Source: Acidovorax sp. CF316
GTDB taxonomy: Bacteria; Pseudomonadota; Gammaproteobacteria; Burkholderiales; Burkholderiaceae_C
Length of the DNA: 64,000 nucleotides
Assembly (NCBI RefSeq): GCF_000276605.1
Contig: NZ_AKJX01000207.1
Location: 1-64,000, forward strand
Direction of reading: 5' to 3'
Under the pieces are notes generated by a model, which made no database searches, was not told the DNA's origin, and was given only the letters and a program-made list of their open reading frames with translations. A program made the position numbers and the translations under genes. Shown piece after piece: positions 6,316-59,526 of this stretch (within the stretch, counting starts at the first letter, position 1; every line of letters begins with the position of its first letter).

Positions 6316-7260
6316 ATGAAAACCCCGACCGCCGAAGCCCCGGCAGGTGCCGTCAAGGCCGTGCGCCGTTTCAACCGCTTCTTCACGCGCCGCATCGGCG
6401 TGCTCGACCCCTACCTGGGCAGCGAGCTGTCGTTGACCGACGTGCGCGTGCTCTATGAACTGGCCCACCGCGACGCCCTGGTGGCCAGCGAACTGGCGCG
6501 CGAGCTGGGGCTGGATGGCGGCTACCTGAGCCGCATCCTGCGGCGCTTCGAGGGCGCGGGCTGGATCAGCCGGGCACCGAGCGCCAGGGATGCGCGCCAG
6601 AGCGAGCTCACGTTGACGCCTGCCGGGCATGCTGCCTTTGCGCCGCTGCAGCAGCGCTCGCGCGACGAAGCGGCCGCGCTGCTCGCCCCCCTGCCCGCCC
6701 CGCGCCAGGCAGAGCTGGTGCAGGCCATGGAGCGCATCGAAGCGCTGCTGGAGCCCGCTGCCGCCACCAGCGGGCCTGCCAGGGTGGCCGTGCTGCGCGA
6801 CCCGGTGCCTGGCGACATGGGCTGGGTGGTGCAGCAGCATGGCGAAATCTATGCGCGGGAATACGGCTGGGACCTGCGCTTCGAGGCCCTGGTGGCCGAT
6901 ATCGCCGCGCAGTTCGTGCGCAAGTTCCAGCCTGAATGGGAAAAATGCTGGATCGCCGAGCTCGACGGCGAGCGCGTGGGCGCCATCTTCGTGGTGCGCA
7001 AATCCGCCAGCACCGCCCAACTGCGCATGCTGATCCTCTCGCCCAAGGCCCGTGGCATGGGCCTGGGAGCGCGGTTGACGGACGAATGCATCGCCTTTGC
7101 GCGTGCCAAGAGTTACAAAAAAATGGTGCTGTGGACCAACAGTTGTCTCACCACCGCACGTTCCATCTATGCCAAACGGGGTTTTGTGCTCGACAAGTCG
7201 GAGCCCTACGAGGACTTCGGGCAACAATTGGTGGGAGAAACCTGGTCGCTCAAGCTATGA
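6316..7260 (+). CDS. MarR-type helix-turn-helix / GNAT acetyltransferase fusion
   Basis: 314 aa. Residues about 10-150 form a winged helix of the MarR family (LTDVRVLYELAHRDALVASELARELG, with the recognition helix in DGGYLSRILRRFEG and the wing in RDARQSELTLTPAG, quoted in pieces). Residues about 155-314 are a GNAT N-acetyltransferase domain with the acetyl-CoA loop around SPKARGMGLGARL. Such fusions are a known family and likely couple sensing or acetylation of a small molecule to gene control. The target genes are unknown. The direct repeats just upstream suggest it controls its own expression. It is divergent from ygiQ. Confidence 0.92.
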   Translation: MKTPTAEAPAGAVKAVRRFNRFFTRRIGVLDPYLGSELSLTDVRVLYELAHRDALVASELARELGLDGGYLSRILRRFEGAGWISRAPSARDARQSELTLTPAGHAAFAPLQQRSRDEAAALLAPLPAPRQAELVQAMERIEALLEPAAATSGPARVAVLRDPVPGDMGWVVQQHGEIYAREYGWDLRFEALVADIAAQFVRKFQPEWEKCWIAELDGERVGAIFVVRKSASTAQLRMLILSPKARGMGLGARLTDECIAFARAKSYKKMVLWTNSCLTTARSIYAKRGFVLDKSEPYEDFGQQLVGETWSLKL

Positions 7261-7268
7261 CCAGGGCA

Positions 7269-7525
7269 TGTCATCATTCATTTCGCCCCCGCGAAAGCCT
7301 GCAGCGCGGTGCAGTGCAAGGCGCCCTGAGTGCCGTGTAGCACGGCTACACAAGCGAAGGGCAACACCGCAATGTGCCGCGCCGCAGGCTTTCCCTTGGG
7401 GCTGGCCCCGGCATGCGGCGTCTGCTTTGTCGCACGGCTTGCCAATAGCCCGCTATTGGCTGCGCCGCGCTTCGCGCATCCATCCTCATGCCGGGGCCAG
7501 CGCGGGGGCGAAATGAATGATGACA
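7269..7525. repeat. Nested palindromic element (MITE-like or structured intergenic repeat)
   Basis: The outer arms, 7269-7293 and 7501-7525, are a perfect 25-bp inverted repeat with the core TTCATTTCGCCCCCGCG. Inside are two further long hairpins: 7294-7316 with 7370-7392 (23 nt, four mismatches), and 7401-7415 with 7487-7501 (15 bp, perfect). Each carries a small tip hairpin: GTGTAGC/GCTACAC at 7335-7351 and CCAATAGC/GCTATTGG at 7442-7459. The whole would fold as a cloverleaf in single-stranded DNA or RNA. There is no transposase. The right arm contains the start codon of the next gene. From memory, similar sequences occur dispersed in Comamonadaceae, but this was not searched. Confidence 0.8.
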
Positions 7526-8077
7526 CGCCCTACCCCCGCCCGGACCGATGCCGTGACCACCAGCCCGCCTTCAGAACCCACCCTGCGCCTGCTCACCCCG
7601 CACGATGACCTGGAGCGGCTGACCGCGCTGATCCATGCGGCCTACGCCCCGCACGCCGCCAAGGGCCTGCGCTACTGGGCCACCCACCAGACGGTGGAGG
7701 ACACGGCCAAACGCCTGGCCTCGGGCCTGGCACTGGTCATGGAAATCGAAGGTGACCATGCGGCCACGGCGACCTTGCGCGCCCCGCAACCCGAGTCCAA
7801 GGTGGCGCTGTACCGCGACAGCACGGTGTGGTCGATCACGCAGTTCTGCGTGGCGCCCCGGTTCAAGGGCCTGGGCCTGGGGAAACTGCTGCACGGGGAA
7901 CTGCTGACCAGGGCGCGCAGTGCCGGGGCCGCCACCCTGGCACTGGACACGGCCGAACCGGCCCATGCGTTGATTGCGATGTACGAATCCTGGGGCTACC
8001 GGGTGGTCGGCGCGTGCGACTGGAGGCCGCTCACCAACTACACCAGCGTGCTCATGGCACGCCCCGTGGACGCCTGA
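7517..8077 (+). CDS. GNAT family N-acetyltransferase
   Basis: 186 aa with the GNAT fold: an N-terminal DDLERLTALIHAAY helix and the acetyl-CoA binding segment VAPRFKGLGLGKLLHGELL near residues 115-133, followed by the conserved YESWGYRVVG strand. The acceptor substrate is unknown. The annotated ATG lies inside the right arm of the palindromic element at 7501-7525, which makes the start doubtful. An in-frame GTG at 7553, just outside the element, would give a protein of more usual N-terminal length. If the ATG is used, the insertion has supplied the start codon and altered the leader. Confidence 0.85.
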   Translation: MMTRPTPARTDAVTTSPPSEPTLRLLTPHDDLERLTALIHAAYAPHAAKGLRYWATHQTVEDTAKRLASGLALVMEIEGDHAATATLRAPQPESKVALYRDSTVWSITQFCVAPRFKGLGLGKLLHGELLTRARSAGAATLALDTAEPAHALIAMYESWGYRVVGACDWRPLTNYTSVLMARPVDA

Positions 8078-40803: not shown

Positions 40804-40872
40804 CCGGATAACTAGGCGGGGAGCCGCAGACAGTGCTGTAGCACGGCAAGGCTCCCCAACGACGTTAGCCGG
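40804..40872. repeat. Imperfect palindrome with attC-like layout
   Basis: Outer arms GGATAAC (40806-40812) and GTTAGCC (40864-40870) pair with one mismatch. Unpaired spacers TAGG and AACGAC follow, then an inner perfect stem GGGGAGCC/GGCTCCCC (40818-40825 and 40850-40857) and a loop with a GTGCT/AGCAC tip hairpin. It lies between livK's stop and the shared terminator. The arm-spacer-arm order resembles integron attC sites, but the GTTRRRY core is not met. Confidence 0.5.
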
Positions 40873-59353: not shown

Positions 59354-59526
59354 CTCAGAAGGTGTGAAGGGACCCGGCGTGTCCGAGCAGGCCGCCAAAA
59401 CGCGTGCGATCTAGGCGCAAAGCACAGCCATAGCTCGGGCTAGGGCTATGGCGAGCATTTGCAACGACGAGCGCGCGTGTTTTGGCGGCATGATCGGGCA
59501 TGGCGGGTTCGTTCACACCTTCTTAG
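59354..59526. repeat. 173-bp imperfect palindrome between purD and hemF
   Basis: The outer 50 bases of each arm (from 59361 and back from 59519) match at about 80% as inverted repeats, with GCCGCCAAAA and GGTGTGAA fully conserved. An inner 8-bp perfect stem, GCCATAGC/GCTATGGC (59427-59434 and 59445-59452), sits at the centre. The right arm runs into the purD stop codon. It could fold as one long stem. It shares no obvious sequence with the element at 7269-7525. Confidence 0.78.

Follow-up and report, generated by a model that had tools for sequence, protein, structure and literature searches.

The stretch of DNA considered here, called the window, comprises 64,000 nucleotides from Acidovorax sp. 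CF316, and it holds a nested palindrome between two acetyltransferase genes. The locus raises the question of what kind of element this is, what could have carried it between the two genes, and what its ordered interior is for. An earlier note, made from the letters alone, left three options: a mobile miniature inverted-repeat element (MITE), a large palindromic unit moved by a host transposase, or a structured RNA. Comparison with related sequences makes it very probable that the element is a non-autonomous MITE with IS5-type ends which is mobilised in trans, and that its interior belongs to a superfamily of cloverleaf interiors separable from those ends.

Architecture and insertion site of the element

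The features of the locus are as follows.
6316..7260, +, upstream gene with MarR and GNAT domains; in relatives G069 and G063 its stop overlaps the next start
7263..7531, no strand, whole MITE of family A, 269 bp, delimited by same-ended copies and the empty site
7263..7292, no strand, outer stem, left half (terminal inverted repeat), with family ends in common with an IS5-family insertion sequence (IS)
7293..7393, no strand, arm 1, an imperfect hairpin of 101 nt, from the fold
7306..7380, +, hairpin module copy 1 (AGGCGC ... CAAG ... GCAAC), 78.9 bits with model R1, whose training set includes this copy
7394..7400, no strand, central mini-hairpin of 7 nt, CC-TTG-GG in the window copy
7401..7501, no strand, arm 2, an imperfect hairpin of 101 nt, from the fold
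7415..7487, -, hairpin module copy 2, facing copy 1, 72.6 bits with R1, also in the training set
7502..7531, no strand, outer stem, right half (terminal inverted repeat), from the repeat and the fold
7517..7519, +, ATG contributed by the right terminal repeat and in frame with the GNAT gene; replaces the ATG from the ATGA overlap of G069 and G063
7517..8077, +, downstream GNAT acetyltransferase gene

The perfect 25-bp inverted repeat reported earlier (7269-7293/7501-7525) is present in the sequence, but the bounds of 7269 and 7525 had to be moved outwards to 7263 and 7531 in view of the copies and the empty site. The outer inverted repeat is 31 bp long at 97% (7263-7293/7501-7531), with an outer stem of 30 bp. 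Folded as single-stranded DNA, positions 7260-7535 reached -105.3 kcal/mol, compared with -63.9 +/- 3.9 kcal/mol for 200 dinucleotide shuffles (z -10.6, no shuffle as good). The fold agrees with the earlier description of an outer repeat enclosing two hairpins, each with its own tip hairpin; the three-stem layout was correct, but the small central CCC-TTG-GGG hairpin was missing from it. At 269 bp the element is too short to hold a transposase gene, and it is short, gene-less and bounded by terminal inverted repeats, as a MITE is.

In G069 and G063 the site is empty, and the stop/start overlap of the two genes reads straight through as ATGA, while relative G031 has a short different spacer at this place. 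The window element sits directly after ATGACC. The downstream protein starts with MTLARTDAV in G069 and with MMTRPTPARTDAV in the window, where the first residues come from the right terminal repeat. The proposal that the downstream open reading frame takes its ATG (7517) from the right arm was confirmed for both position and frame. On this comparison the window copy split the ATGA overlap and its right repeat now offers a candidate in-frame start codon, as would follow if the element inserted between two overlapping acetyltransferase genes and then offered the second one a start. It is an example of a MITE that breaks up a stop/start overlap and itself offers a start codon.

Copies, empty sites and the probable partner insertion sequence

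The host draft assembly (7.09 Mb in 315 contigs) contains three full-length family-A copies, on contigs C207 (the window), C135 and C198, plus several partial matches. Since the palindrome may break short-read assembly, copy numbers from drafts may be underestimates. Element ends were also seen at two contig ends of the host (C263:22840-22901 and C87:1-61), perhaps one copy split by assembly. A search of the host with the terminal repeat pattern, allowing two mismatches, was abandoned as a copy finder because its matches were largely chance (104, against 55 for the reversed control). Within the genus Acidovorax 31 near-full family-A copies were found in 12 genomes, and 10 further distinct copies came from named records of Acidovorax, Simplicispira, Comamonas and two MAGs. 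The length of these 41 copies is nearly constant: 29 are 269 bp, seven 270 bp and three 268 bp long (39 of 41 within 268-270 bp), with one each of 251 and 279 bp. The element is thus not a single copy, but occurs in the host and its relatives as multiple dispersed copies with the same ends. Phage and plasmid collections gave no matches to the element (blastn, E<=1e-3). The copy on host contig C198 (G000:C198; L020:1046-1315 and flanks) lies inside the tip of a single-module family-D palindrome, i.e., the two module elements are nested.

Eight more copies, from G069 and G063, were examined for empty sites. Joined flanks were compared for these eight out of 15 prepared copies, the eighth being short by 17 nt. 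Five sites were continuous in one to three sister genomes, one (L136) matched only partially, with 16 nt of left flank, and for two (L137 and L139) no empty site was found. Where the site was clear, the flanks joined across the element equalled the empty site with zero to few base changes. Empty sites in strains, which the earlier note had named as a check, are therefore available for the window copy and for five of the eight others. T precedes and A follows the 269 bp in 20 of the 31 copies from the genus, and the window copy is flanked by C and A. A TA target duplication is the simplest reading of the T...A flanks, but it is not clean at the empty sites, as TA stands there in only two of the five clear cases and the sister genomes read TC or TG in the other three. 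One copy (L140:512-780, G069:C19) apparently lies within coding sequence, the flanks of its empty site reading DPFGHRWNIGH by eye; since the insert does not add a whole number of codons, it has probably disrupted the gene.

An IS of 873 bp with family-A ends was found in Rhodoferax sp. BLA1 (L212) and in a Burkholderiaceae MAG (L169). Two reading frames of the L169 copy scored 159 and 130 bits against the NCBIfam model transpos_IS5_3 (cut-off 110), and this partner of the IS5 family is presumably IS427-like. Its right end in L169 equals the family-A ends of G009 over 25 nt, the right end in L212 over 20 nt, and the right end of the window element agrees with the same L169 end over 14 nt. In G009 the family-A ends are found on MITEs and also bound a longer element with an IS5-type transposase at its sequenced edges, where DDE_Tnp_1_2 scored above the Pfam cut-off and DUF4096 just below. 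At the DNA level the IS had matches in 10 of 47 genomes of the genus, mostly partial ones, and nearly full-length only in G033, G035 and G009 (in the latter as two overlapping pieces). Hence an autonomous IS with ends matching those of the MITE exists in relatives, whereas the host draft assembly gave no matches to the DNA of the partner IS and none to PF13586 or PF13340. Current mobility in this host is accordingly putative, and the transposase, suggested before to be one of the host, was recovered in relatives and not in the host draft.

An IS5-family transposase that recognises the ends AGGGCGTGTCATC... would move the element in trans. What the comparison gives is dispersal, empty sites, ends shared with the IS5 family, and a common interior and geometry, and from these we infer the trans-mobilisation. 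Among the three options named at the outset the MITE was upheld, by dispersed copies, empty sites and an IS with matching ends; the structured RNA was not.

The hairpin module and the cloverleaf behind different ends

Partial matches in relatives, read at 17 places, proved to be other elements with other ends which carry one of the hairpins of the window element. Arm 1, arm 2 and the hairpins of families B-E align as one motif, (T)GC-N-AGGCGC ... tip stem ... CAAG ... GCAACG-N-CGC. Judged by this alignment, both arms of the window element are one homologous hairpin module. The covariance model R1 was built from 14 modules (seven of family A, four of B, and one each of C, D and E). Its hits in families A-E and in G057, the source of C, are for that reason not independent, while those in families F and G and in other taxa are.

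In the host, R1 placed modules at 45 or more sites at E<=0.05 and at 32 or more at E<1e-3, with 150 of 13527 first-look candidates scored. In the window element the modules start at 7306 and 7415, as the facing pair that characterises the proposed superfamily, although both are training copies. Four F elements were found by R1 as facing pairs 108 nt apart, compared with 107-109 nt in family A. Of two G elements R1 found one module each; the partner module scored a weak 26 bits in one element and was otherwise missed. Modules were present in at least 37 of 120 sampled Burkholderiales genomes (E<=1e-4) and in at least 18 of 299 genomes of the phylum (E<=1e-5), the host included in both sets and some of the latter genomes belonging to another class; both searches used stricter filters on overlapping genome sets, and the counts are lower bounds. 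Several genomes were rich in modules at the search thresholds (G082 with 40, G101 39, G089 31, G091 30 and G305 16) and are candidates for active families elsewhere. Two further places in the window deserve mention. Positions 59357-59523 contain an element of about 167 bp with one module and the ends AGAAGGTGTGAA...TTCACACCTTCT, an end type that also occurs at host locus L285, and R1 scores 27.3 bits at 59401-59478. A weak R1 match (26 bits) at 40806-40871 is an imperfect palindrome, TAGGCG...CAAGG...CCAACGACG.

The families of the host differ in their ends, which begin AGGGCGTGTCATC in most copies of A, AGAGCCTGTTCA in B, AGGGCCTGTTCACAC in F and CCACTGAAACCGAG in G. Their lengths are similar (A and B 269 bp, F 267-268 bp, G 262 bp), and the three other two-armed host MITE families share the cloverleaf and the length of family A behind differing ends. 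All nine host elements compared consist of an outer stem, an arm, a near-central hairpin of the CCC-TTC-GGG type and a second arm. IS5-type genes with matching ends occur for other families too: in G021 a B-type element adjoins an IS5-type IS that carries the ends of this element, and in G004 (L228) an IS5-type gene lies between F-type ends.

Outside the host, 53 loci (L288-L340) were taken as part of the matches from the order and phylum searches, some genomes giving two loci. Ends were detectable in 48 of them (five had none), and 26 of the 48 form the canonical junction. Together with the nine host elements, which were chosen as two-armed, a four-way junction is formed in 35 of 57 elements, a figure which does not count independent lineages, as the host elements were preselected and several other genomes gave two loci. 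The remaining 22 comprise elements with a single arm, degraded or rearranged ones, and some whose bounds the script set wrongly. According to minimum-energy folds with RNA parameters, the junction is gap-free in 33 of the 35 canonical elements, arm 1 measures 97-105 nt in 34, and the mini-hairpin is 7 nt long in 30, CC-TTC-GG being its commonest form among the 35. Arm 1, mini-hairpin and arm 2 add up to 202-215 nt in 34 of the 35, within an outer stem of about 30 bp. Six loci from genomes of another class (L317, L319, L322, L325, L335 and L336) have the canonical junction, so the set spans at least two classes. Hierarchical clustering of the ends at 70% identity gave 12, 16 or 19 clusters with single, average and complete linkage, respectively; many clusters begin with an AGRGC(C/G)TGTT-like sequence, i.e., the ends differ but are not all unrelated.

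In the superfamily that we propose, two homologous modules would face each other round the mini-hairpin and close a gap-free four-way junction (100 + 7 + 100 nt). One and the same interior accompanies a variety of terminal repeats and can accordingly be separated from the ends, which link it to a particular transposase. Common descent could explain part of the near-constant length; the geometry appears, in addition, to be under selection. We consider it an even matter whether a selected cloverleaf cassette of about 207 nt, whose two facing modules would bind protein or RNA within the gap-free junction, repeatedly gained new ends, parasitising many IS5-type transposases across Proteobacteria, with the interior as the unit that persists.

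Possible role of the interior and comparison with known systems

Paired positions of the element change together. In the 41 family-A copies 97.8% of the cells of 103 pairs are paired, compared with 35-42% when the pairing is slid, and the covariation score is 0.188 against at most 0.031. Thirty pairs change on both sides, and 18 of these are mainly swaps (A-U/U-A, C-G/G-C, A-U/C-G) without a G-U step. Many of the covarying pairs split 16 host-like sequences (G000, G031, G063 and G069) from the other 25, which points to few events. The G.T/A.C exceptions in family A number 15/19 in the outer stem, 20/12 in arm 1 and 18/15 in arm 2. Three pairs in which such a mismatch is the majority state were left out of these counts, two of them from arm 1 and one from arm 2. 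In two copies (L174:6902-7169 and L180:1024-1291) a clustered change made the imperfect tip of arm 2 a perfect hairpin, as expected from templated correction of a palindrome. Across families, 69 aligned modules from 46 loci have 93.5% of cells paired and a score of 0.642 against at most 0.106 when slid, in an alignment fitted to the model. Covariation among the copies, proposed earlier as a check for an RNA structure, is therefore very strong, but does not establish such a structure, as the G.T and A.C exceptions of family A are balanced. This balance and the swaps without a G-U route are explained no less well by upkeep of the palindrome in DNA than by an RNA, and one arm may have been corrected from the other at the DNA level, with or without selection.

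That the cloverleaf acts as RNA, co-transcribed and folded so that it terminates, stabilises or processes the mRNA, or as a small RNA, is a reading which we hold as tentative and rather doubtful. It draws on the very stable folds, the cross-family covariation and the excess of G.T over A.C on the module strand, 52 against 13 in the 69 fitted modules and 47 against 15 in arm 1 of the 35 canonical elements. These excesses are not clean, since a model of the pairing had guided the module alignment and G.U is among the pairs that the folds allow. In the same 35 elements arm 2 has 25/22 and the outer stem 14/27, and the family-A stems lack a clear G.T excess. Rfam gave no family at threshold for window positions 7150-7650, where three sub-threshold microRNA resemblances of long hairpins were taken as chance, and the sole gathering-level hit in 18 module loci was a tRNA. 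The balance in family A suggests a constraint on DNA, for instance an extruded cruciform or folded single strand that is recognised by the transposase or a host factor, the geometry being needed for mobility. The gap-free junctions in 33 of 35 elements, the outer stem of about 30 bp and the arms of about 100 nt are what such recognition would call for, but we find it unlikely in view of elements that lack this geometry. Single-arm elements with ends exist (112-182 bp), and 52-bp elements with family-A ends and almost no interior occur at L173, L176, L199, L209 and L214 of one Burkholderiales groundwater MAG. Three of the latter are identical and two similar; each lies at a site of its own, preceded by T and followed by A. 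Because they are dispersed, the interior is probably not required for transposition, as far as sequence comparison can tell.

The interior-less copies are also consistent with an ordinary MITE, derived by internal deletion from one IS5-family IS, in which the palindrome would be a functionless by-product of inverted duplication and correction. The agreement of the ends with those of an IS5-family IS, which reaches 25 nt, points the same way, as do the paired changes that resemble arm-templated correction, i.e., the 18 of 30 swaps and the tips in L174 and L180. We regard this explanation as possible, though improbable on the whole, since R1 located a module at one place only among ten IS-bearing loci, a place covered by two overlapping loci, and that one is a family-B MITE beside the IS. 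Homologous modules with an arm length near 100 nt stand, moreover, behind 12-19 end clusters, and the bases unpaired in the consensus (CAAG and the AA of GCAACG) are conserved in the 69 aligned modules and similarly in 70 arms. Conservation of unpaired bases together with the fixed geometry favours a function of the interior. A cloverleaf interior that is separable from its ends would then serve persistence rather than the transposition reaction, as a protein-bound or transcript-level structure making insertions beside or inside operons tolerable. Simple inheritance with palindrome correction may be the alternative to such a tolerated structure. Finally, the element is palindromic and dispersed, as REP or BIME-type elements moved by a tyrosine transposase are, but its long terminal inverted repeats in common with an IS5-family IS, its unit of 269 bp and its ends without a GTAG or CGTC tag make this origin extremely improbable.

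The usual view of MITEs is that they derive from one IS by deletion and that their interior does not matter. The pattern described here is the reverse, which is unexpected in MITEs: the interior is conserved and the ends vary, and the geometry is held to a few nucleotides despite very different sequence. The persistence of non-autonomous elements thereby becomes a testable question, and a model of the R1 type could annotate many intergenic repeats in Burkholderiales. In the open-access literature searched we found no description of the 269-bp element or of a cloverleaf MITE superfamily with a shared interior, and within that literature a group of MITEs that keep a single cloverleaf interior while their ends differ is apparently new. 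MITEs as such, their IS partners and their insertion in operons are already known from the available text of a review (PMC10969869), in which the words "cloverleaf" and "cruciform" do not occur.

Several known systems share single properties with the window element. The 873-bp IS of the IS5 family has the family-A ends, but the MITE lacks its transposase, and R1 finds no module inside the tested IS copies. TIMEs are inverted-repeat miniature elements derived from Tn3 and are non-autonomous like the MITE, which has IS5-type ends instead (PMC4133298, as available in part). The REPs tagged with GTAG or CGTC are palindromic too, but they measure 20-40 bp with a 4-nt tag according to the portion of the source consulted (PMC3733652), while the window element has arms of 100 nt inside an element bounded by terminal inverted repeats. 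Correia/NEMIS, ERIC, RUP and QMITE are short non-coding elements with terminal inverted repeats, and none is presented as a two-module cloverleaf in the descriptions used for comparison, which come from parts of two sources (PMC10969869, PMC3733652). Chunjie, a MITE of Geobacter uraniireducens with copies of 178-235 bp, one of them in an operon, resembles the window element, as far as the available text describes it, in being short and gene-less with terminal inverted repeats and many copies (PMC10969869). Its length is variable, whereas the window family is nearly constant in length and has an interior common to families with different ends.
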